Shown here: positions 30,819 to 63,119 of the stretch, piece after piece
How positions within the stretch are numbered: the first letter of the stretch is position 1
How the letters are laid out: each line of letters starts with the position of its first letter
NCBI RefSeq assembly: GCF_003725775.1
Contig: NZ_RJSG01000006.1
Location: 62,001-126,000 of the forward strand
Direction of reading: 5' to 3'
Source: Nocardioides marmorisolisilvae
GTDB lineage: Bacteria > Actinomycetota > Actinomycetes > Propionibacteriales > Nocardioidaceae
DNA length: 64,000 nucleotides
The notes under the pieces: model-generated
Databases searched by the model: none
What the model was told of the DNA's origin: nothing
The model's input: the letters and a program-made list of their open reading frames with translations, nothing else
Made by a program: the position numbers and the translations under genes

Positions 30819-31200
30819 GGGTGTTGCCTCCTGCGGGATCTGCCGCGAGTCGTGAGGACTCGTGCCTCGGGATTGGGAATCCTGCCACGCCCACGCGGCG
30901 AGCGGGAGCCGGAGATACAGGTTGTCCCCATGGACGCATGGTTCCGGTTGTTGTTCGGCGAAGGGACCAATTGAAGATCTAGTCGTAGTAGTAGGGCCGG
31001 TGGATCCTGTGGAGAACTCATGAAACCGCAGGTCACCGACAGTTTGAGCGTCCCCAGGTGCTGTGGACTCGTGGTGGCGAAATCACAGGTTCCTGTGGTT
31101 CGGCCGGCGGGATGTGCAGGACGGTGACCGCTTCTCCACACGCGATCCCCAGGAAGTCCACGACAATTCCTGTCGGGAACCACAGGCCGTCGGCGCGTGC
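30819..31200. other. Candidate oriC interval between dnaA and dnaN
   Basis: These 382 bp contain no gene. I see DnaA-box-like 9-mers at 30922-30930 (TTGTCCCCA, plus), 31008-31016 (TTCTCCACA on minus) and 31132-31140 (TTCTCCACA, plus). Weaker CTGTGG/CCACAG cores lie around 31062 and 31094. An AT-richer stretch lies at 30968-30990 (CCAATTGAAGATCTAGTCG). This is the expected location of actinobacterial oriC, but no box is a perfect TTGTCCACA and the cluster is sparse. Confidence 0.6.
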
Positions 31201-32721
31201 TCAGGCCTGCTTGGCCTGCTGCTTGATCCGCATCGTGAGCTCGTTGACCGTCTTGTAGACCGTCTGGCGCTCGGCGAGGTCCTTGCGGATGCGGCGTTCG
31301 GCGTTCATGACCGTGGTGTGGTCGCGGCCGCCGAACTGCTGGCCGATCTTCGGCAGCGACAGGTCGGTGAGCTCGCGGCACAGGTACATCGCGATCTGGC
31401 GAGCGGTGACCAGGGCGCGCGTACGACTCGGGCCGCACAGGTCCTCGATGCTGAAGGAGTGGTACGACGCGGTCTGGGCGATGATCAGGCCGGCGGTGAC
31501 CTGGGGCTCGCCACCCTCGGGGATGAGGTCCTTGAGCACGATCTCAGCCAGGGTCATGTCGACCTCCTGGTGGTTGATGCTCGCGAACGCGGTCACCCGG
31601 ATGAGCGCGCCCTCCAGCTCACGGATGTTGGTCTGGATGCGGCTGGCGATGAACTCCAGGACGTCGGCCGGTGCGTGCAGGCGGTCGGCGGCGGCCTTCT
31701 TGCGGAGGATCGCGATCCGGGTCTCGAGGTCCGGCGGCTGCACGTCGGTGAGCAGGCCCCACTCGAACCGGTTGCGCAGGCGGTCCTCCAGCTGGGTGAG
31801 GCGCTTCGGCGGGCGGTCGGAGCTGATGACGATCTGCTTGTTGGCGTTGTGCAGCGTGTTGAAGGTGTGGAAGAACTCCTCCTGCGTCTGCTGCTTGCCC
31901 TCGAGGAACTGGATGTCGTCGATCAGGAGAACGTCGACGTCGCGGTACCGGCGCTGGAGCGCAGCAGTGTTCGCGTCCTTGATCGCGTTGATGACGTCAT
32001 TGGTGAACGCCTCGGAGGAGACGTACCGGATCTTGGCGCCGGTGTAGAGGCTGCGCACGTAGTGGCCGATCGCGTGCAGCAGGTGGGTCTTCCCGAGTCC
32101 CGAGTCGCCGTAGACCAGCAGCGGGTTGTACGCCTTGCCCGGTGCCTCGGCGACGGCGACCGCGGCTGCGTGGGCGAACCGGTTCGACGATCCGATGACG
32201 AAGGTCTCGAAGGTGTACCGCGGGTTCAGCGGGCTGTCGGGGATGCCCGTCGTCAGCGAGGCGCCACCCTGGATATTTGTCGACAAAGCACTTTGGGTAT
32301 TTGGAGATGTAGCGCTTTGTGACTGTGTTTTGAGCGTGGATTCGAGGTCCAGGTCGTCGTCAGCGCTGTCGGAGAGGGAGTCGACGAGGCCGTCGTCCTC
32401 ACCTGCACCGAGGTCGGTCGACGGGTCACCAGGAACGGTCTCGGCGGGAGCCAGGCTGTCGTCGACGGTGACCGCGATGCGGATCGGTCGGTTGAGGCTG
32501 TCGCTCAGCGCGTCCTCGAGACGGGTTCGCAGCCGGCCCTCGAGCTGGGTGCGGGTGAACTCGTTCGGGACCGCGATGACGGCTGTCGACTCGGCGAGCA
32601 TCACCGGCTTGCTGGAGGCGAGCCAGACGCGCTGGTTGGGAGCGAGGCTGTCGAGGATGGCGGGCCAGAGAAAGTCCAGTTCGCGGCCGTTGGAACCGTT
32701 GTTTCCTGCTGCTGAATCCAC
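31201..32721 (-). CDS. dnaA: Chromosomal replication initiator DnaA
   Basis: With a GTG start at 32721 the protein has 506 residues: domain I (FLWPAILDSLAPNQRVWLAS), a long acidic domain II linker (about 80-160), the AAA+ domain III with Walker A GDSGLGKT (205-212) and Walker B VDVLLIDDIQFLEGK, and the domain IV helix-turn-helix with GGRDHTTVMNAERRI for DnaA-box binding. The upstream ATG at 32763 is possible but lacks a good ribosome-binding sequence. A 60-bp patch in domain II (32276-32337) uses AT-rich codons (AAA, ACA, TCA, CAA, AAT) unlike the rest of the gene and holds one copy of the TGTCGACAAAGC motif. Confidence 0.97.
   Translation of the reverse strand: MDSAAGNNGSNGRELDFLWPAILDSLAPNQRVWLASSKPVMLAESTAVIAVPNEFTRTQLEGRLRTRLEDALSDSLNRPIRIAVTVDDSLAPAETVPGDPSTDLGAGEDDGLVDSLSDSADDDLDLESTLKTQSQSATSPNTQSALSTNIQGGASLTTGIPDSPLNPRYTFETFVIGSSNRFAHAAAVAVAEAPGKAYNPLLVYGDSGLGKTHLLHAIGHYVRSLYTGAKIRYVSSEAFTNDVINAIKDANTAALQRRYRDVDVLLIDDIQFLEGKQQTQEEFFHTFNTLHNANKQIVISSDRPPKRLTQLEDRLRNRFEWGLLTDVQPPDLETRIAILRKKAAADRLHAPADVLEFIASRIQTNIRELEGALIRVTAFASINHQEVDMTLAEIVLKDLIPEGGEPQVTAGLIIAQTASYHSFSIEDLCGPSRTRALVTARQIAMYLCRELTDLSLPKIGQQFGGRDHTTVMNAERRIRKDLAERQTVYKTVNELTMRIKQQAKQA
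32276..32320. repeat. Origin-proximal motif copy 1 (within dnaA) with inverted partner
   Basis: TTTGTCGACAAAGCA (32276-32290) is followed 23 bp later by the inverted partner GCTTTGT (32314-32320), complementary to ACAAAGC (32284-32290). The stretch is far more AT-rich than its surroundings and encodes part of the DnaA linker. The same 15-mer recurs at 38228-38242. Confidence 0.7.
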
Positions 32722-33186
32722 GTGTGCCTCGCGCTCTCCTCGTCCTGGTTGTCCGATCCACACCTTTGTCCACAGGTTGTGCAGGGTGCGCGAGTTCCAG
32801 ATTGAGCCAGCTTGTCCGCTTTCTCAGGTGGGTCGGTGCCCGGACGCTAACAACTGGGACGCCTGTGGATCAACTGTTGTCCACAGGTTTTGAACTTTGC
32901 ACGGCGTGTCGGCGCCTTCCGCGGGATCAGAGCGTGCAAGATCGGCTCTTTTGCGGTTCTGAACCCGCTCAGCTGCTGGCGAATTGACCCTGCGTGGAGC
33001 CGACGCGTACCGTTGGCAGGTCGAAACCGGTTCGACCGGTGCCGCATGTCCACGACCGGGCTCCTCCCAGAGCCTGTCGCGCGGGCAGGCGGTGCCAGTT
33101 GGCCAGCGTGATGGTGGCTCCTGGCGGCGTTCTGCGTCGTGCGACCCGGTGTGGACACGTCCCAACAAAACTCCGTGGAGATATTC
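32722..33186. promoter_or_regulatory. dnaA-rpmH divergent region with two perfect DnaA boxes
   Basis: This 465-bp gene-free interval contains TTGTCCACA at 32766-32774 and 32877-32885 (both plus). The related TGTGGATCA lies at 32864-32872, an inverted arrangement with the second box. It must hold the dnaA and rpmH promoters. The boxes directly upstream of dnaA suggest autoregulation. The remainder (32900-33160) shows no gene or motif I recognise. Confidence 0.7.
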
Positions 33187-33324
33187 GTGAGCAAGCGTAC
33201 GTACCAGCCGAACAACCGCCGCCGTCACAAGGTGCACGGTTTCCGCCTGCGGATGCGCACCCGTGCGGGTCGCGCGATCCTGTCCGCCCGCCGTCGCAAG
33301 GGCCGCAACAGCCTCGCTGTCTGA
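33187..33324 (+). CDS. rpmH: 50S ribosomal protein L34
   Basis: The 45-aa basic protein ([20 protein letters not shown], then [20 protein letters not shown] and NSLAV) is L34. The GTG at 33187 follows GGAG with a seven-base gap. It is the first gene right of the origin and is followed by rnpA after 14 bp. Confidence 0.98.
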
Positions 33325-33338
33325 GGCCGGCGCCTGGT

Positions 33339-33680
33339 GTGCTTCCCTCGAGCAACCGCCTGACCGCTGCTGAAGACTTTCGGCACGTGGTCCGGCGGGG
33401 TCGCCGGTCCGGTGGACAGCTGGTGGTCGCGCACCTCATGGTGCCAAATGTCGACAAAGCGATAAGTGCCCCCGTGAAGGTGGGGTTCGTCGTCGCCAAG
33501 TCGGTGGGCCCGGCAGTGACGCGGAACCGCGTGAAGCGACGACTACGCCACCTGATGAGGGAGCGGATCCACACGCTCCCGAGCGGCAGCATGCTCGTCC
33601 TCCGGGCGCTGCCCGCTGCGGCCGGCGCCACCTCCCGGGATCTTGCCGGCGAGCTCGATCGTTGTCTGGATCGACCATGA
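33339..33680 (+). CDS. rnpA: Ribonuclease P protein component
   Basis: The 113-residue basic protein begins [20 protein letters not shown] and contains [27 protein letters not shown], including the RNRxKRRLR RNA-binding motif. It assists the catalytic RNA in 5' processing of tRNA. The stop overlaps the yidD ATG (ATGA). The segment coding PNVDKAIS (33441-33467) uses unusual codons, including AAT and ATA, and carries a copy of the TGTCGACAAAGC motif. Confidence 0.96.
33449..33468. repeat. Origin-proximal motif copy 2 (within rnpA)
   Basis: TGTCGACAAAGCGATAAGTG matches the sequence after parB (38230-38249) at 18 of 20 positions, the two differences being G/A. Translation through it needs the rare codon ATA, unusual in this GC-rich genome. 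Confidence 0.7.
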
Positions 33681-33931
33681 AATATCTCCTCATCGCCCTG
33701 CTGAAGGCGTACCGGTTCGCGATCAGCCCGCTCTACGGGCAGGTCTGTCGGTACCACCCGACCTGCTCGGCGTACGCGCTCGAAGCGGTGACGGAGCACG
33801 GCGCGATCAAGGGCAGCTGGCTCGCGGTACGCCGGATCGGGCGCTGCCACCCCTGGGCTGCAGGCGGGTACGACCCGGTTCCGCCCCGCACGAAACTGAC
33901 CGCAACACCAAGCACGACTCAAGGAGTCTGA
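33677..33931 (+). CDS. yidD: Membrane protein insertion efficiency factor YidD
   Basis: The 84-aa protein has an amphipathic N-terminus ([20 protein letters not shown]) and the conserved [19 protein letters not shown] and [17 protein letters not shown] segments with three cysteines, diagnostic of YidD. It sits at the inner membrane and aids YidC-dependent insertion. Translationally coupled to rnpA by ATGA and directly followed by yidC. Confidence 0.96.
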
Positions 33932-34948
33932 GTGGGTTTCCTCGGCGATATCGGCCACTTCATCATGACGCCGCTGTACTACGGCGTCTCCGTGGTGCTC
34001 ATCGGCTGGCACAAGGTCTTCGGTGCGATCTTCGGTCAGCACAGTGGTGTGTCCTGGGTCCTGTCGATCGTCTTCCTGACCCTGACGATCCGTGCGCTGC
34101 TGATCCCGCTGTTCGTGAAGCAGATCAAGTCGAGCCGGAACATGCAGCTGCTGCAGCCCAAGGTCAAGGAGCTGCAGAAGAAGTACGGGCACGACCGCGA
34201 GCGTCTGACCCAGGAGACGATGGCGCTCTACAAGGACACCGGGACCAACCCGTTCTCGTCCTGCCTGCCGCTCCTGATCCAGATGCCGATCTTCCTGGCG
34301 CTGTTCCGCCTGCTGAGCCACGCCGCCAAGACCAAGTCGCTCGAGTCGGCGAAGTCGATCGGCGTGCTGTCCAGCGCTGACGCCTACAGCTTCGCCAAGG
34401 CGAAGATCTTCGGCGGGACGATCTCTTCGAGCTTCATGAACGCCGACGTCACCGAGGTCAAGATCATCGCGGTCTTCCTGGTGCTGGCGATGACGGCGAC
34501 CACCTTCCTCACCCAGCGCCAGCTGATGAGCAAGAACATGCCGGCGGACGCCCTCTCGGGCCCCTACGCCCAGCAGCAGAAGATGCTCCTCTACATCCTG
34601 CCGCTGGTCTTCGCGGTCGGCGGTATCGCCTTCCCGATCGGCGTGCTCCTGTACTGGACCACCTCGAACCTGTGGACCATGGGTCAGCAGTTCTACGTCA
34701 TCCGGAACAACCCCGCTCCGAACACCGAGGCCTTCCGGGCCAAGCAGAAGCGAGACGCCGCGAAGGCGGCCGCCAAGGGCGAGCCGGTCCCCGGCACCGC
34801 GGCGGTTGCTGTCGAGGAGATCGTCGAGGAGCGTCGCCCCGCGCAGCGCCAGCAGCCGAAGAAGCAGTCCCGGCAGCAGCGTCGTACGCAGGGCCCCAAG
34901 AACCCGTCGCCGTCGAGCGACAGCACCGATCAGGGAGACAACAGTTGA
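33932..34948 (+). CDS. yidC: Membrane protein insertase YidC
   Basis: The 338-aa protein is a Gram-positive/actinobacterial-type YidC without the large periplasmic domain. It has an N-terminal helix (YYGVSVVLIGWHKVFGAIFG) and the conserved cytoplasmic hairpin KQIKSSRNMQLLQPKVKELQ. Helices containing NPFSSCLPLLIQMPIFLALFRLL and ILPLVFAVGGIAFPIGVLLYW follow, and the tail is basic and RQQ/KKQ-rich. It inserts membrane proteins with or without SecYEG. Start GTG abuts the yidD stop and follows AAGGAG. Confidence 0.97.
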   Translation: MGFLGDIGHFIMTPLYYGVSVVLIGWHKVFGAIFGQHSGVSWVLSIVFLTLTIRALLIPLFVKQIKSSRNMQLLQPKVKELQKKYGHDRERLTQETMALYKDTGTNPFSSCLPLLIQMPIFLALFRLLSHAAKTKSLESAKSIGVLSSADAYSFAKAKIFGGTISSSFMNADVTEVKIIAVFLVLAMTATTFLTQRQLMSKNMPADALSGPYAQQQKMLLYILPLVFAVGGIAFPIGVLLYWTTSNLWTMGQQFYVIRNNPAPNTEAFRAKQKRDAAKAAAKGEPVPGTAAVAVEEIVEERRPAQRQQPKKQSRQQRRTQGPKNPSPSSDSTDQGDNS

Positions 34949-35481
34949 GCGAGACCACTGACACCGAGACCGTCGTCGAGGACGCAGCCGCCGTCGACGA
35001 GGAGAACGCCGACCGTCCGTCGCGCACCAAGCGACTGGAGCAGGAGGGCGAGATCGCCGCGGACTACCTCGAGGAGCTCCTCGAGATCGCGGACCTCGAC
35101 GGTGACCTGGACATGGACGTCGAGGGGGACCGGGCGACCGTGTCCATCGTCGGCGCCGACCTGCCGCAGCTGATCGGCGACAAGGGAGAGGTGCTGGAGG
35201 CGCTCCAGGAGCTCACCCGCCTGGCTGTGTACCGGGAGACCGGTGAGCGCTCGCGCCTGATGCTGGACGTGTCCGGCCACCGTGCCGCGCGTCGCACCAC
35301 GCTGGAGGAGAAGGCCGCCGCGGTCGTTGCCGAGGTCAAGGAGAAGGGCGACTCCGTCTCCCTCGAGCCGATGTCGCCGTTCGAGCGCAAGGTCGTGCAC
35401 GACGCTGTTGCTGCCGCCGGCCTGAAGTCGGAGTCCGAGGGTGTCGAGCCCCGTCGGTACGTGGTGGTCCTCCCCGCGTGA
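34945..35481 (+). CDS. jag: Jag/KhpB-like R3H domain RNA-binding protein
   Basis: The 178-residue protein has an acidic N-terminal 45 residues and a KH domain (DRATVSIVGADLPQLIGDKG with the GxxG-like loop IGDKG, about 75-105). A C-terminal R3H domain follows (LEPMSPFERKVVHDAVAAAG). It starts with TTG overlapping the yidC stop (TTGA). In Firmicutes the homologue pairs with KhpA to bind RNA and affect cell elongation. Its place after yidC is conserved across actinobacteria. Confidence 0.94.
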   Translation: MSETTDTETVVEDAAAVDEENADRPSRTKRLEQEGEIAADYLEELLEIADLDGDLDMDVEGDRATVSIVGADLPQLIGDKGEVLEALQELTRLAVYRETGERSRLMLDVSGHRAARRTTLEEKAAAVVAEVKEKGDSVSLEPMSPFERKVVHDAVAAAGLKSESEGVEPRRYVVVLPA

Positions 35482-36122
35482 CCCCCGATGTTTCACGTGA
35501 AACACCCCCTGCACCGCCTGAGGCGCAGGGGGTGTTTTCCGATGCGCTCCCGACGGCCGAGGCCTACGCCGGCCTCCTGGCGACCGACGGGATCGTCCGT
35601 GGACTGATCGGGCCTCGCGAGGTGCCGCGCCTCTGGGACCGACACCTCCTCAACTGCGCGGTCGTGACCGATGCGGTCCCGGAGGGATCCTCGGTCTGCG
35701 ACATCGGGTCCGGAGCGGGCCTTCCGGGCCTGGTCATGGCCATCCGCAGGGCCGACCTGACGGTCACCCTGGTCGAGCCGTTGCTGCGCAGGACCACCTT
35801 CCTGGACGAGGCCGTCGAGGCTCTGGGACTTGCGAACGTGCGGGTTGTTCGCGGCCGGGCTGACGAGCTGCACGGCAAGGAGACCTTCGACGTGGTCACT
35901 TCGCGTGCAGTTGCCCCCCTTGACCGGCTCAGTCGCTGGTCTTTGCCCTTGGTCAGGGCTGGCGGAGAGTTCCTGGCCATGAAAGGCTCATCCGCGGAGG
36001 ACGAGCTCGCGGCCGCCGCCAAGGTCATCGCCCAGGAGCGTGGACAGGTGCAGGGCGTCGTGGAGCTGGGAGCAGAGCTCCTGGCCCCGCCGGTACGCGT
36101 CGTGCGGATCCTCAAGATGTGA
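35478..36122 (+). CDS. rsmG: 16S rRNA (guanine-N7) methyltransferase RsmG
   Basis: The 214-aa enzyme has the SAM-binding SSVCDIGSGAGLPGLVMAIR motif (about 72-91), VTLVEPLLRRTTFLDE and the VTSRAVAPLDRL segment typical of GidB/RsmG, which methylates G527 of 16S rRNA. The GTG start overlaps the jag stop (GTGA). Codons 5-10 (VSRETP) read through a parS site, a common feature of this gene. Confidence 0.96.
   Translation: MTPDVSRETPPAPPEAQGVFSDALPTAEAYAGLLATDGIVRGLIGPREVPRLWDRHLLNCAVVTDAVPEGSSVCDIGSGAGLPGLVMAIRRADLTVTLVEPLLRRTTFLDEAVEALGLANVRVVRGRADELHGKETFDVVTSRAVAPLDRLSRWSLPLVRAGGEFLAMKGSSAEDELAAAAKVIAQERGQVQGVVELGAELLAPPVRVVRILKM
35489..35504. promoter_or_regulatory. parS site 1 (within the 5' end of rsmG)
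   Basis: TGTTTCACGTGAAACA is a perfect 16-bp match to the universal parS centromere site bound by ParB. It is embedded in the start of rsmG. Confidence 0.97.
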
Positions 36123-36149
36123 CGTTCGAACTAGGGAGATAGTCCTTTC

Positions 36150-36244
36150 GGGTGGTTCTGCGCCAGAAGTTATCCACCGCCCAGGAAGACCCTCCAAGCG
36201 GGGCAATCCACAGAACCACCCCAGTTATCCACAGGCCGACGGCC
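36150..36244. promoter_or_regulatory. rsmG-parA intergenic DnaA-box cluster inside an 11-bp inverted repeat
   Basis: GGGTGGTTCTG (36150-36160) and CAGAACCACCC (36211-36221) are perfect inverted arms around a 50-bp centre. DnaA-box-like sequences are TTATCCACC (36170-36178), CAATCCACA (36204-36212) and a perfect TTATCCACA (36225-36233). The region lies directly before parS site 2 and the parA start. Confidence 0.65.
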
Positions 36245-36260
36245 TGTTTCACGTGAAACA
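36245..36260. promoter_or_regulatory. parS site 2 (upstream of parA)
   Basis: A second perfect TGTTTCACGTGAAACA, 18 bp before the parA GTG. ParB binding here probably both nucleates the partition complex and represses parAB. Confidence 0.97.
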
Positions 36261-36278
36261 TCGTCTCAGGAGAACAGC

Positions 36279-37253
36279 GTGACCCAGCCGGAGAACGGGA
36301 CCACCGAACCGGAAAACGCGGCCGTTCGAACTGCCGCAGACCTGGAAGAGACCAGGACGTCGTACGGCGACACCTCCACCCCTCTGGCGCGAGCGATCGA
36401 GGCCGAGCTGCGTGCCCGGGAGCGGATGAACTTCCGCGACCCGCTGCCGCGGCCCTCGAAGACCCGGGTCATGGTCGTCGCGAACCAGAAGGGGGGAGTC
36501 GGCAAGACGACCTCCACGGTGAACCTCGCGGTGGCGCTGGCCCAGGGCGGCCAGCGGGTGCTCGTGGTCGACCTGGACCCCCAGGGCAATGCGTCGACCG
36601 CACTGTCGGTCGACCACCGCCGGGGGACGAACTCGTCCTACGACGTGCTCGTCGACGGGATGCCGCTCTCCGAGGCAGTCCAGGAGCACGCGGACATCCC
36701 GGGGCTCTTCATCGTGCCCGCGACCATCGACCTGGCTGGAGCGGAGATCGAGCTCGTCAGCGTCGTCGCACGGGAGAGCCGCCTGAAGAAGGCGCTGGCG
36801 GCGTACGAGCTGATCGGCACGGGCTCCGAGGACCGACTCGACTACGTGCTCATCGACTGCCCGCCGTCGCTCGGCCTCCTGACCCTGAACGCGCTCGTCG
36901 CCGGCGTGGAGATGCTGATCCCGATCCAGGCCGAGTACTACGCCCTCGAGGGCCTCGGCCAGCTGATCGAGACCGTCGAGATGGTGAAGGCGCACCTGAA
37001 CAGCGACCTCTCGATCTCCACGATTCTCATCACGATGTACGACTCCCGCACGAACCTCGCCGCGGGGGTCGCCGACGAGGTCCGTGAGCACTTCAAGGAG
37101 CAGGTGTTGCGGACGACCATCCCGCGCTCGGTCCGCGTCTCCGAGGCCCCTTCGTACGGCCAGAGCGTGATCACGTACGATCCGGGCTCGCCGGGCGCAC
37201 TCAGCTATTCGGAGGCCGCCCGCGAGATGGCCATCAAGGGAGGACAGCTGTGA
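36279..37253 (+). CDS. parA: Chromosome partitioning ATPase ParA (Soj)
   Basis: The 324-aa protein has an N-terminal extension of about 60 residues, then [20 protein letters not shown] with the deviant Walker A (71-78), [14 protein letters not shown] (Walker A') and [18 protein letters not shown] (Walker B). ParA binds DNA in the ATP form and moves ParB-parS complexes. The GTG at 36279 follows CAGGAGAACAGC with good spacing. parB follows after 13 bp. Confidence 0.97.
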
Positions 37254-37266
37254 TCGGGGTGCGTGC

Positions 37267-38208
37267 ATGAGCGAGAAGCGACGAGGACTGGGCCGAGGAC
37301 TCGGCTCGCTGATCCCGACGCAGCCCGAGCCCGGTGCAGAAACCACTACGAACCAGGGCGTACCGGGAGATACCGGTCCGGCGATGGTCGCGGGTGCCTA
37401 CTTCGCCGAGCTGCCGATCACCGCGATCACCCCGAACACCCGCCAGCCCCGCCAGGTCTTCGACGAGGAGGCGATGGCCGAGCTGGTTCACTCGGTCAAG
37501 GAGATCGGTCTCCTGCAGCCGGTCGTCGTCCGCAGCATCGGCGACGGCCGCTACGAGCTCATCATGGGCGAGCGCCGTTGGCGCGCGACCACCGAGGCCG
37601 GCCTGGCCACGATCCCGGCGATCGTCCGGGACACGGGTGATGACGACATGCTCCGGGACGCCCTCCTGGAGAACCTGCACCGGTCCCAGCTGAACCCGCT
37701 CGAAGAGGCGGCCGCCTACCAGCAGCTGCTGGACGACTTCGGGTGCACCCACGAGGAGCTGTCGACCCGGATCGGCAGGAGCCGGCCGCAGATCAGCAAC
37801 ACCCTCCGACTGCTCAAGCTGTCGCCGGCCGTCCAGCGACGGGTGGCCGCTGGTGTCCTCTCGGCCGGCCATGCGCGGGCTCTGCTGGGCATCAGCGATG
37901 CAGGTGCCCAGGACCGTCTCGCGGCCCGGGTGGTGGCCGAGGGCATCTCGGTCCGGGGGCTCGAGGAGATCGTCGCCGTCGGTGTTGACGAGGACGAGGG
38001 CGAGACCGTCCGGTTCAAGGCACGGCGTCCGTCGGCACCCGGTCTGGCCGACCTGAACGACCGGCTCTCGGACCGGCTCGACACCCGGGTCAAGGTCAGC
38101 ATGGGCAAGTCCAAGGGACGCATCACGATCGAGTTCGCGTCCCTCGGAGACCTCGAGCGGATCGTCGGCGTGATCGACCCGCGCAATCGTGACGACAGGC
38201 CGATCTAG
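37267..38208 (+). CDS. parB: Chromosome partitioning protein ParB (Spo0J)
   Basis: The 313-residue protein begins [20 protein letters not shown], the ParA-activating N-terminus with the typical [12 protein letters not shown]. It has the CTP-binding motifs [10 protein letters not shown] and [14 protein letters not shown], a helix-turn-helix ([21 protein letters not shown]) for parS, and a C-terminal dimer domain ending [18 protein letters not shown]. It binds the two parS sites upstream. Confidence 0.97.
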
Positions 38209-38224
38209 GTCTTCAAGGATTCAT

Positions 38225-38262
38225 CTCTTTGTCGACAAAGCAATAAATGACTAAAGAGTCTC
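38225..38262. repeat. Origin-proximal motif copy 3 after parB, in a hairpin-forming AT-rich segment
   Basis: TTTGTCGACAAAGCA (38228-38242) is identical to the dnaA copy. TGTCGACAAAGCAATAAATG (38230-38249) matches the rnpA copy at 18 of 20. CTCTTTGTC and GACTAAAGAG can also pair as an imperfect hairpin, so a role in ending parAB transcription is possible. The strip is strikingly AT-rich for this genome. Confidence 0.65.
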
Positions 38263-38281
38263 AGGGCGCTGACCTGCAGGT

Positions 38282-39052
38282 TTAGGCGCTTCCCGACTTC
38301 TTGGCCTTGCGCTCAGCGCGCAGCCGGCGCTCCTCGGCGTACAACGCCGCGGCCTCGTCGAGGGTCGGTGCAGAGCCTCCGAAGCGGGCCGGCAGCCACC
38401 AGGAACCGGGCGGTTGCTCGCCAGCCGGGTGCGCCGTGATGAGCCGGTCGAGCATCGCCTCCATCGTCGTCTGCAGCTCCTTCGTGACGACGTTGGCGTT
38501 GTCCGCAGCAGTGGGGTGCAGGGCTTCGCCGATCTCGATGCCGACGGTCTTGTGGCGCTTGAAGTCGCGCGGCTTGCCCTTGGTCAGGAAGCGCTGGGTG
38601 CCCCAGAGAACGATCGGGACCAGGGGCACCCCGGCCTCCTGGGCGATCCGGACGGCGCCGGTCTTCACGGGCTGGAGCTCGAAGCTCCGGGAGATGGTGC
38701 CCTCCGGGAAGATGCCGACGCACTCGCCGTCGTGCAGGTAGCGGATCGCCTCGTCGATGCCGCCCTGACCCGAGGTGCGGTCGATCGCGATGTGGTGGAA
38801 CGAGCGCATCACCGGGCCGCCGACGGCGTGGTCGAAGACCTCCTTCTTGGCCATGAACCGCGTCAGGCGGCCGCGCTCGACGCCCGGGTACCCAGCCATC
38901 AGGTAGTCCACGAAGGAGAGGTGGTTCACCGCGAGCAGGACGCCACCCTTCTCCGGGATGTTCTCCATCCCCGTCATCCGGATGTCGATGTCGCCGAGCT
39001 TGAACCAGGTCTTCGCGGCGGCGATGACGATCGGGTACGAGATGTCGATCAT
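38282..39052 (-). CDS. 1-acyl-sn-glycerol-3-phosphate acyltransferase (PlsC-like)
   Basis: The 256-aa protein carries the acyltransferase motifs NHLSFVD (HxxxxD, His44/Asp49), ECVGIFPEGTISRS (motif III) and GVPLVPIVLWGTQRF (motif IV). One N-terminal membrane-associated helix is likely. It transfers acyl groups to lysophosphatidate or a related lysolipid. The basic C-terminus (RRLRAERKAKKSGSA) is additional to the usual domain. It converges on parB. Confidence 0.9.
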   Translation of the reverse strand: MIDISYPIVIAAAKTWFKLGDIDIRMTGMENIPEKGGVLLAVNHLSFVDYLMAGYPGVERGRLTRFMAKKEVFDHAVGGPVMRSFHHIAIDRTSGQGGIDEAIRYLHDGECVGIFPEGTISRSFELQPVKTGAVRIAQEAGVPLVPIVLWGTQRFLTKGKPRDFKRHKTVGIEIGEALHPTAADNANVVTKELQTTMEAMLDRLITAHPAGEQPPGSWWLPARFGGSAPTLDEAAALYAEERRLRAERKAKKSGSA

Positions 39053-39141
39053 GGCCGAACCCTACGGGAGAGTAGGTAACGGCGAAATGCCCCGCGGATA
39101 ACCCCAGGCGACGCCGGTACGCCGTCTGGAACACTTCTCCC

Positions 39142-40359
39142 ATGCGCCGCATCGTCCAGTCCCGCAAGCTCCAGCACGTCCGCTACGACGTACGGGGTCC
39201 GATCCTGGTCGAGGCACAGCGACTCGAGGCCGAGGGCCACAAGATCCTCAAGCTCAACATCGGGAACCCGGCCCCGTTCGGCTTCGAGGCGCCCGAGGCG
39301 ATCGTCGCCGACATGGTGCACAACCTGCCGGACGCGCAGGGGTACTCCGACTCCCGCGGCATCTACTCCGCGCGCACCGCGGTCGCGCAGTACTACCAGC
39401 AGCGCGGGCTCACCGACACCCAGGTCGACGACGTCTTCATCGGCAACGGCGTCTCCGAGCTGATCTCCCTGGTGCTCCAGGCGTTCCTCGACGACGGCAA
39501 CGAGATCCTCATCCCCGCGCCGGACTACCCGCTGTGGACCGGAGCGGTCACCCTCGGCGGCGGCGTCCCGGTGCACTACCGGTGCGACGAGGAGAACGGC
39601 TGGAACCCGGACCTCGAGGACATCGAGTCCAAGATCACCGAGAACACCCACGCCCTGGTGATCATCAACCCGAACAACCCCACCGGCGCCGTCTACAGCG
39701 AGGAGACCGTGAAGGGTCTCGTCGACATCGCGCGTCGCCACGAGCTCGTCATCTTCAGCGACGAGATCTACGAGAAGATCCTGTTCGACGACGCGGTGCA
39801 CCACCACACCGCGACGTACGCCAGCGACGACGTCCTCTGCCTGACGTTCAGCGGTCTGTCCAAGGCCTACCGCGTCTGCGGGTACCGGGCCGGCTGGGTG
39901 ATGATCTCCGGACCCAAGCACCTCGCCGAGGACTTCCTCGAGGGCCTGACCCTGCTGGCCAACATGCGCATGTGCGCGAACGTGCCCGCCCAGCACGCCA
40001 TCCAGACGGCGCTCGGTGGGTACCAGTCGATCAGCGAGTACATCGGTCCGGGTGGCCGCTTCTACGAGCAGAGCAAGCTGGCCGCGAAGCTGCTCAACGA
40101 CATCGACGGCGTCAGCTGCGTCGAACCCATGGGTGCGCTGTACTGCTTCCCGAAGCTGGACACCGAGATGTTCGGCATCACCGACGACGAGGCGTTCGTC
40201 ATCGACCTGCTGAGGGCCAAGAAGATCCTGGTCACCCACGGCACCGGTTTCAACTGGTTCGAGCCCGACCACTTCCGGCTCGTCACGCTGCCCGACGTCG
40301 ACATGCTCACCGAGGCCATCGGCCGGATCGAGGACTTCCTGGCGACCCTGCGTCGCTGA
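39142..40359 (+). CDS. PLP-dependent aminotransferase (AlaA-like, alanine transaminase)
   Basis: The 405-residue class I aminotransferase contains KLNIGNPAPFGFEAPEAI, IINPNNPTGAVYS and the PLP-binding lysine in TFSGLSKAYRVCGYRAGWV, with the phosphate-binding Arg in the same motif. The N-terminus (RRIVQSRKLQHVRYDVRGPI) and the CANVPAQHAIQTALGGYQS segment match the AlaA/YfbQ group, which converts pyruvate and glutamate to alanine. An exact substrate assignment is inferred from those motifs. It is divergent from the acyltransferase. Confidence 0.88.
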   Translation: MRRIVQSRKLQHVRYDVRGPILVEAQRLEAEGHKILKLNIGNPAPFGFEAPEAIVADMVHNLPDAQGYSDSRGIYSARTAVAQYYQQRGLTDTQVDDVFIGNGVSELISLVLQAFLDDGNEILIPAPDYPLWTGAVTLGGGVPVHYRCDEENGWNPDLEDIESKITENTHALVIINPNNPTGAVYSEETVKGLVDIARRHELVIFSDEIYEKILFDDAVHHHTATYASDDVLCLTFSGLSKAYRVCGYRAGWVMISGPKHLAEDFLEGLTLLANMRMCANVPAQHAIQTALGGYQSISEYIGPGGRFYEQSKLAAKLLNDIDGVSCVEPMGALYCFPKLDTEMFGITDDEAFVIDLLRAKKILVTHGTGFNWFEPDHFRLVTLPDVDMLTEAIGRIEDFLATLRR

Positions 40360-61988: not shown

Positions 61989-63119
61989 TCACCCCCGTCG
62001 CTTCAGGTAGAGCTGGAAGGCAGCGTAGATGGCCCGGTTCAGCGGCAGGTCCCACTCGCCGGCGTACTCGACCGCCTCGCCGCCGGTGCCGACCTTGAAC
62101 TGGATCAGGCCCAGGTGGGGGTCGTCGGAGGCAAGGGTCTCGGTGATGCCGCGCAGGTCGTAGACCCCTGCTCCGGCGGCCAGCGCGTCGGTGATCATCC
62201 GCCACTGGATCGCGTTCGAGCCGCGGACCTCGCGCTTCTCCGTCGAGGAGGCGCCGTAGGAGTACCAGGTGTGGGTCCCGACCCGGATCCAGATGGTCGA
62301 GGCGACCAGGTCACCCTCGTGCTGGGCCAGGTAGAGCCGGATCCGGTCGGGGTCCTCGCCCTGCAGCGCGGCGTACATCGTCTGGAAGTAGCCCAGTGGC
62401 CGCGGGGTGAAGTGGTCCCGCTCCGCGGTGTGCGCGTAGAGCGCGTGGAAGGCGGGCAGGTCCTCGGCAGTGCCGACAGTGACCTCGACCCCCTCCTTGG
62501 CGGCCTTCTTGATGTTGCGGCGCCAGAGCTGGTTCATGCCCGCCAGGACGTCGTCCTCGGTGCGACCGGCGAGCGGGATCTGGAAGTTGTACTGGGGCTG
62601 GCCCGCGGCGAACCCACCGGCCACCGACTGGCACTGCCAGCCGAGCTCCCGGAGCTGGGAGAGGACCGAGGCGCCGACCTGGCTGCGCTCGCCGGGCGGC
62701 AGCTGCGTCAGGGTGGTGACGGCGTCATCAGCGATGCCGTCCTTGATCTGGGCGGCGTCCCAGCGGCGGGTGACGACCGGCGGCCCGATCCGGATGCCGA
62801 AGGCGCCCTGCGACTTCAGGTGCGCGGCCATCGGGTTCAGCCAGCCACCGAGGTCCTCCGAGGCCCAGTCGATCACCGGGCCCTCGGGCAGGTAGGCGAG
62901 GTAGCGCTTCACCTTCGGCAGCTGCCGGTACAGGACCAGGGCGGCACCGACCAGGGCGTCGCCGGAGAACCAGCCGATCGACTCGGCCTTCCACTCCGCC
63001 TTCACCTGCGCCCATGCCGGCGTCTGCAGGAAGCTGGCCGAGGACTGGCTGTTCAGGAACGCCAGGTGGTCGGCTGCGGAGATCGTCCGCACGGCGAGCG
63101 CGGCTTCAGTGACGGGCAC
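61989..63119 (-). CDS. FemX/FemAB-type peptidoglycan bridge aminoacyltransferase
   Basis: The 376-aa protein has two GNAT-like halves of the Fem family: SSASFLQTPAWAQVKAEWKAE and KRYLAYLPEGPVIDW in the first, and LWRRNIKKAAKEGVEVTVGTA and TWYSYGASSTEKREVRGSNAIQW in the second, ending DLRGITETLASDDPHLGLIQFKVG. Fem proteins transfer an amino acid from tRNA to lipid II. Genera such as Nocardioides have LL-diaminopimelate with a glycine bridge, so glycine is the probable donor. GTG start at 63119. Confidence 0.9.
   Translation of the reverse strand: MPVTEAALAVRTISAADHLAFLNSQSSASFLQTPAWAQVKAEWKAESIGWFSGDALVGAALVLYRQLPKVKRYLAYLPEGPVIDWASEDLGGWLNPMAAHLKSQGAFGIRIGPPVVTRRWDAAQIKDGIADDAVTTLTQLPPGERSQVGASVLSQLRELGWQCQSVAGGFAAGQPQYNFQIPLAGRTEDDVLAGMNQLWRRNIKKAAKEGVEVTVGTAEDLPAFHALYAHTAERDHFTPRPLGYFQTMYAALQGEDPDRIRLYLAQHEGDLVASTIWIRVGTHTWYSYGASSTEKREVRGSNAIQWRMITDALAAGAGVYDLRGITETLASDDPHLGLIQFKVGTGGEAVEYAGEWDLPLNRAIYAAFQLYLKRRG

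Follow-up and report, generated by a model that had tools for sequence, protein, structure and literature searches.

Features of the origin region

The window analysed here is the 64,000-nucleotide stretch at positions 62,001 to 126,000 of contig NZ_RJSG01000006.1 of Nocardioides marmorisolisilvae, which carries dnaA, rnpA and parB around the replication origin. One 12-mer, TGTCGACAAAGC, lies inside dnaA, inside rnpA and directly behind parB. It forms the core of arrays of 8-bp boxes that also stand before a second parA-like gene, parA2, and these boxes are probably bound by the small protein encoded directly behind parA2.

The original prediction placed three copies of the 12-mer around the origin. 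All three are real. The window search found them at 32278-32289, 33449-33460 and 38230-38241, all on the + strand; only the dnaA coordinate had been given one base too high (32279). By chance 0.01 copies are expected, and three were reached in 0/100 shuffles. Direct reading of the sequence bore out the predicted identity of the dnaA and parB copies over 15 bases (TTTGTCGACAAAGCA) and the agreement of the rnpA and parB copies at 18/20 bases. Counted over the whole assembly (G000; 3,828,516 bases, 3.83 Mb in 6 contigs, 99.99% complete), as had been proposed, the motif is not scattered evenly: the exact 12-mer occurs at these three places, all within 6 kb at the origin. With one mismatch allowed, ten further places were found in the assembly, against six for the backwards control. 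TTGTCGACAA occurs at two places in the assembly, both in the window. An Rfam scan of 31000-39500 gave no match at gathering score, and a known RNA element was thus not found there.

Each copy had also been described as lying in an anomalous AT-rich patch, which is read here as the array itself. The description fits dnaA (56.8% AT, compared with 31% for the window; 0.03% of same-length windows equally AT-rich) and parB (62.5% AT; 0.02% of windows), and is weaker for rnpA (50% over 28 bases, equalled by 1.65% of windows). The claimed switch in codon choice at the two coding copies was confirmed for dnaA, where 14/20 of codons 144-163 end in A or T, against 11.7% gene-wide (0/5000 permutations). 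At rnpA it is weaker than claimed, and the densest run of A/T-ending codons lies elsewhere (codons 105-112).

Arrays of 8-bp boxes

The unit is an array of 8-bp boxes, with TGTCGACA as the best box and the 12-mer as its core, rather than the 12-mer alone. In the dnaA array the palindromic core TTTGTCGACAAA occupies 32276-32287, and TTTG repeats stand at offsets 0, 16, 24 and 40. At 38226-38241 the array behind parB matches the 16-bp palindrome GCTTTGTCGACAAAGC except for one base.

The period was measured on 22 dnaA and 20 parB sites of congeners aligned on the palindrome, by counting copies of GTCGAC with at least 4/6 letters. On-phase positions (multiples of 8 bp) scored 0.224 and off-phase positions 0.042, and the maximum over 300 flank shuffles was 0.068. 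Of the periods from 5 to 13, 8 gave the highest on/off ratio (5.35). The exact odds of this signal are not to be taken literally, because shuffling preserved nothing but the base composition and the genomes share ancestry. The array is clear across the congener set, and its outer boxes are degenerate in the source genome.

Conservation in genus, family and class

The exact 12-mer was found in 19/24 genomes of the genus, and the backwards control in 2. There were 31 exact matches, 26 of them at four loci (rnpA 8, behind parB 8, before parA2 6, dnaA 4) and 5 elsewhere. Origin stretches were taken from 23 of the 24 congeners, G013 being left out as having no dnaA match, and were searched for TTTGTCGACAAA with at most two mismatches. 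A site lies inside dnaA in 22/23 (not in G022) and behind parB in 20/20 congeners whose stretch reaches past parB (all except G011, G021 and G022), so that the motif, whose presence in relatives had been put forward as a check, recurs at the same positions. The rnpA site was found in 9/23, with a tenth (G020) at three mismatches; this copy is restricted to part of the genus. The sole additional match in the 23 stretches is in rsmG of G020. G022, the one congener without the dnaA site, also lacks a match for the small gene that partners parA2; its assembly is fragmented (540 contigs).

Across the family the exact 12-mer occurs in 177/294 genomes and 16/26 genera, compared with 12/294 genomes for the backwards control (own count), and many of the listed matches are the full palindrome GCTTTGTCGACAAAGC. 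Other loci of the origin region carry the site in other genera. In six genomes of genus g19 it lies inside gyrB, where it encodes NALSTKL using TTG and ACA in 6/6 and GCT in 5/6; each of these makes up about 2-6.5% of the codons for its amino acid in those frames. In one of them (L064) the site holds the sole TTG among 56 Leu codons and the sole ACA among 37 Thr codons. Protein-coding genes (dnaA, gyrB) thus depart from their usual codon choice where the DNA element overlaps them. A site before dnaB was found in genus g6, 31-48 kb from the parB site (five genomes examined), and in three congeners (G007, G020, G023), about 37-50 kb from dnaA.

Some further observations were made at dnaB and at class level. 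In G362, of another family, TTTGTCGACAAA and a second box site (L326:10510 and 11266) lie in an array-like stretch directly behind dnaB. The dnaB of G145 (L092:6692-9886) is a 1064-aa frame with an apparent intein interruption near the Walker motif, judged by eye. Class-level matches to the 12-mer partly look like coding coincidences, such as those in a Der/EngA-like GTPase gene, named from its translation (L275, L276, genus g35).

Boxes before the parA2 operon

parA2 is distinct from the parA of ParABS and was located via its KGGVGKTT motif. The gene order is xerD (or an integrase-family gene at its place), parA2, the small gene, scpA, scpB and a pseudouridine synthase gene. The small gene overlaps parA2 and scpA by 4 bp each in first-start-codon coordinates. 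The site before parA2 follows what by eye is a promoter-like stretch: in the source genome TATGTCGACAAG lies 23 bases behind a -10-like CCTAGAGT.

For the box count 117 loci were tried and 3 dropped; the remaining 114 include near-duplicates. TGTCGACA stands before parA2 in 84/114 windows of these loci against 1.8 expected; counting GTCGACAA together with its complement gives 90/114 against 2.0, and neither count is corrected for kinship. For the period, 102 loci were tried; 82 yielded a qualifying site, and removal of redundant ones left 65. In 88% of these 65 another box is found at -8 (kinship again uncorrected), with an on-phase score of 0.151, an off-phase score of 0.065 and a shuffle maximum of 0.074. 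In five single-contig relatives (G002, G007, G020, G023 and G198, taken as circular) the operon is 1.75-2.0 Mb from dnaA, and therefore on the far side of the chromosome, distant from the arrays.

Variants were seen further afield. In genus g41, with large genomes and probably Streptomyces (L261, L264-L267, L269-L273), GAGTCGACA is found at the start of parA2, and a CGAC precedes it by 16 bp; the operator may therefore be ancient within the class. In family f13 (L256, L257, L259, L260) the likely parA2 start codon lies inside a box, ATGTCGAC, read as Met-Ser-Thr.

The small gene was found in 22/24 congeners, in 286/294 family genomes (25/26 genera) and in 65/148 class genomes. Its co-occurrence with the box was scored outside the family. 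The positives were 17 parA2 loci with the small gene, being those among 30 retrieved loci that fall outside the family, from 51 positives in total and 10 of them from one genus; the negatives were 20 of the 83 genomes without it, 18 of which have a parA2 ortholog (61-70% identity). [AT]GTCGAC[AT] lies near the parA2 start in 16/17 loci with the small gene (0.56 expected) and in 0/18 loci without it (0.73 expected). Fisher's test gave p 4e-9 by locus and, by family, p 0.002 (4/5 vs 0/12), with family f14 in both groups. At the 18 negative loci the next frame is ScpA-like in 9 (six by script, three by eye), and there the small gene is therefore missing; three have another frame and for six none was listed. 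Arrays, period, positions and conservation, the box in common with parA2 and, in the sample tested, the co-occurrence with the small gene are all direct observations.

The coordinates are collected in the table below. rnpA lies between rpmH and yidD and has an RnpA match in 23/23 origin stretches. The single ParB_N (PF02195) match in the genome is parB. Two perfect standard parS sites, TGTTTCACGTGAAACA, at 35489-35504 and 36245-36260, stand before and behind most of rsmG, and an ordinary ParABS system thus exists beside the new arrays.

Table 1. Positions of the box arrays, their host and neighbouring genes, and the parA2 operon
Feature	Position	Strand	Description
Array 1	32276..32331	.	Inside dnaA, before the ATPase domain (domain II part); phased 8-mers TTTGTCGA CAAAGCAC TTTGGGTA TTTGGAGA TGTAGCGC TTTGTGAC TGTGTTTT
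Site 2	33447..33470	.	Inside rnpA, codons NVDKAIS; AATGTCGA CAAAGCGA TAAGTGCC
Array 3	38226..38259	.	Convergent parB/plsC gap, directly behind parB; TC + TTTGTCGA CAAAGCAA TAAATGAC TAAAGAGT
dnaA	31201..32763	-	Host of array 1; Pfam Bac_DnaA 3.5e-75
rnpA	33339..33680	+	Host of site 2; named from position and matches; start codon by eye
parB	37267..38208	+	Upstream neighbour of array 3; Pfam ParB_N and HTH_ParB
Source-genome parA2 operon	L247 = C4:1189500-1194500		Small gene at C4:1191466-1191843, near 1191.5 kb
parA2	L247:921-1979		352 aa; Pfam AAA_31 4.3e-63
Small gene	L247:1976-2347		123-aa protein; first-start-codon coordinates
scpA	L247:2344-3264		Pfam ScpA 7e-51; followed by ScpB 4.2e-50

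The small protein

The C-terminal 69 residues of the small protein are strongly conserved, with E8 K9 T11 V12 Y13 and V37 D38 R39 G40 R41 invariant; the invariant K-x-T-x-Y precedes two helices. The AlphaFold model consists of an extended segment and two helices, with a core mean pLDDT (predicted local distance difference test) of 93, and the N-terminal part is largely predicted at low confidence. Pfam RHH_3 (ribbon-helix-helix, RHH) matches 10/40 members, all under the cut-off, with a best E of 0.001. The non-significant Foldseek matches listed include the plasmid centromere-binding protein 3no7 and the RHH antitoxin 7ycw. The protein is called RHH-like here rather than RHH, its fold being weakly supported. 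A search of plasmid records gave no relative at E<=1e-3. No description of the boxes or of the small gene was found in the open-licence literature as far as its text could be searched, subscription papers lying mostly outside it.

Interpretation

The original prediction proposed a binding site for an origin-organising or initiation-control protein. A protein-binding element at the origin is well supported by its origin-only location, its recurrence at the same positions in relatives and the pressure on codons. The unit has to be redrawn as an array of 8-bp boxes, and, in place of an unspecified initiation factor, the likeliest binder is the small protein whose gene stands between parA2 and scpA, because the same boxes precede parA2 and, across the loci sampled, are present or absent together with that gene. 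We consider it likely that the arrays are bound by this RHH-like protein as the partner of ParA2, serving both for self-repression of the operon and as an anchor at the origin through which ParA2 would act in segregation or in the control of the division site. Binding by this protein, its fold, self-repression, the link with ParA2 and the function in the cell are inferences. The boxes common to the origin and parA2 suggest, without proving it, a second, plasmid-style anchoring system on the chromosome.

In this mechanism, dimers of the small protein would occupy successive 8-bp boxes side by side, in the way that short tandem repeats are bound by ParG, omega and MetJ. The two or three boxes before parA2 would be the operator for self-repression. 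At the origin the few arrays (inside dnaA and behind parB, with rnpA in this subclade, and in gyrB or at dnaB in other genera) would form a centromere-like anchor; their location inside or behind genes favours an anchor over promoter control. ParA2 is taken as the ortholog of PldP, Rv1708 and SCO1772 because of its place beside scpA, and as a PldP-type ATPase it may couple the origin region via the anchor, alongside ParABS and SMC-ScpAB. The anchor could act in segregation, in the placement of division or in both, given the division phenotype of PldP and its interaction with ParB (see below), and the binding of ParB and ScpA by Rv1708 that is described in the accessible part of PMC10482377.

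Several results weigh against binding of the arrays by an RHH-like partner of ParA2. Among the eight family genomes without a small-gene match, G012, G037 and G160 (94, 85 and 88% complete) keep the exact 12-mer. Outside the family the exact 12-mer, tried as a class-wide marker and rejected, is not clearly commoner with the small gene (14/51) than without it (17/83, p 0.40), and at class level the backwards control is frequent too (19/148 genomes, own count). The co-occurrence sample is limited, in positives and negatives alike, to the loci given above. dnaB of the source genome was examined and has no site. The relaxed motif WTGTCGACAW occurs at ten places in that genome (backwards control 0), namely the three at the origin, one before parA2 and six others, four of which fall inside reading frames; over nine genomes it occurs at 50 places, compared with 8 for the control. 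Twenty such places, lying outside the origin and the parA2 locus, were retrieved from seven genomes. Three (G007, G020, G023) are the locus before dnaB, and the remaining 17 have 0-2 on-phase boxes by the array measure; this measure cannot separate them from the three sites of the window, because these themselves give 0, 1 and 2 on GTCGAC, no better than chance sites. On the protein side, DSSP assigns no strand in the monomer model, and the RHH_3 match, in the four matches listed, covers the second helix only and stays below cut-off. Foldseek gave no match at E<=0.001 for the model, and a sequence search of the PDB gave no relative, one search returning only phosphoribosyltransferases at E 1.3-1.4. 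Finally, the available text of PMC3989709 calls PldP an orphan without a partner ParB, whose mutant shows division rather than segregation defects, and that of PMC4255298 has PldP interacting with ParB, so that it may already have a partner.

Alternatively, an ordinary transcription factor, whether the small protein or a different one, could use the boxes as operators for the joint control of genes for replication and segregation, with no centromere role. The recurrent loci do host or adjoin such genes (dnaA, parB, gyrB, dnaB, parA2), and the parA2 site, like the dnaB site in some relatives, is upstream of its gene. However, the dnaA, rnpA and gyrB sites are intragenic and the parB site falls behind its gene, in a gap between convergent genes, so that a regulator would find no promoter of the gene there, and the source genome has the exact motif at the origin only; a role of this kind alone is considered unlikely. 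Use of the sites as variant DnaA boxes (TTGTCCACA, one base changed) for initiation control is a good deal less probable still. The actinobacterial DnaA box is a TTWTNCACA-type 9-mer, from which TTGTCGACA is one base off, and the sites lie in dnaA and near oriC. They nevertheless read TTGTCGACA, which does not match that consensus, and a DnaA-box-like TTTGTCCACAGG separately adjoins dnaA in most congeners. The arrays, moreover, keep a palindromic G and the 8-bp period, recur before the distant parA2 and are linked to the small gene.

A second CTPase of the ParB/Noc type would account for the origin location and for the 16-bp palindrome GCTTTGTC/GACAAAGC, which is parS/Noc-like in layout, comparable to a Noc site, and has TTT and C at the places of a parS half-site. 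This candidate was rejected on the single PF02195 match in the genome and is held to be very improbable: the standard parS sites are separate, and the new sites are 8-bp arrays, an organisation that parS is not known to have. Chance, or the spread of a functionless repeat, is extremely improbable; in its favour are the shortness of the motif and the degenerate outer boxes in the source genome. Against it stand the same positions in 22/23 and 20/20 congeners, the rare codons at the gyrB site, and the 0/300 flank shuffles that reach the period signal.

A wider reading is, in our estimate, as likely as not: many actinobacteria would have a second, plasmid-style partition module on the chromosome, in which ParA2 and an RHH centromere-binding protein are translationally coupled to ScpAB, the centromere being arrays of 8-bp boxes in the coding sequences of dnaA, rnpA or gyrB and behind parB. 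The accessible part of PMC4255298 has ParA2 occurring in all actinobacteria. If the proposal is true, the small protein would depart from the helix-turn-helix class, to which a 2016 review, in the portion available, assigns all centromere-binding proteins of bacterial chromosomes (PMC5002424), and the 'orphan' ParA2/PldP would gain a partner and a chromosomal address. A concrete partner gene with its DNA sites makes the role of the second actinobacterial ParA directly testable.

Comparison with known systems

The met boxes bound by MetJ are 8-bp palindromes in tandem and resemble the present boxes in that respect; function and sequence are unrelated. Chromosomal ParABS-parS likewise has origin-proximal sites near parAB, but differs in sequence and in class of binder, and its parS, TGTTTCACGTGAAACA, is present here as well. 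Features of plasmid type Ib systems found here are a ParA-type Walker ATPase in an operon, a small gene, probably for a DNA-binding protein, directly behind parA2, and a tandem short-repeat site upstream of the operon that is common to the origin arrays, with period 8 at both. Type Ib ParA proteins are short and have no N-terminal extension, whereas the ATPase domain of ParA2 begins at about residue 97 of 352.

The closest scheme described is ParF-ParG-parH of plasmid TP228 (type Ib), with a ParA-type ATPase and a small DNA-binding partner with a flexible N-terminus; in the accessible text, the target of ParG is a row of short, degenerate boxes separated by spacers, and ParG also represses its own operon (PMC7308502). 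The present system appears to match it in its ATPase, its small partner with a poorly ordered N-terminus, the boxes before the operon and the distant arrays. Unlike TP228, it is chromosomal, its origin arrays lie partly in coding sequence and, in the five relatives, 1.75-2.0 Mb from parA2, its operon continues into scpA-scpB, ParA2 has 352 aa and the RHH fold of the partner is putative. ParB of plasmid pCXC100 (PDB 3no7) is a type Ib centromere-binding protein whose site, by the part of PMC5016525 available, consists of direct repeats only. Its Foldseek TM (template modelling) scores against the small protein were 0.66 and 0.54 by target length, with E-values of 6.0 and 9.8 that are no proof of kinship, and it is plasmid-borne. 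SegA-SegB of Sulfolobus, likened here by description only, pairs a ParA relative on the chromosome with a DNA-binding RHH protein and has palindromic sites ahead of its operon; it is archaeal, and SegB is said, in the available text, to be without similarity to bacterial proteins (PMC9178275). PldP (C. glutamicum), Rv1708 and SCO1772 (ParA2) are ParA2-type ATPases, as is the protein encoded by parA2 here. Unlike the PldP-type orphans, however, this parA2 is overlapped by a partner gene and comes with DNA boxes, and the box is missing in the 18 sampled genomes that have no small gene.

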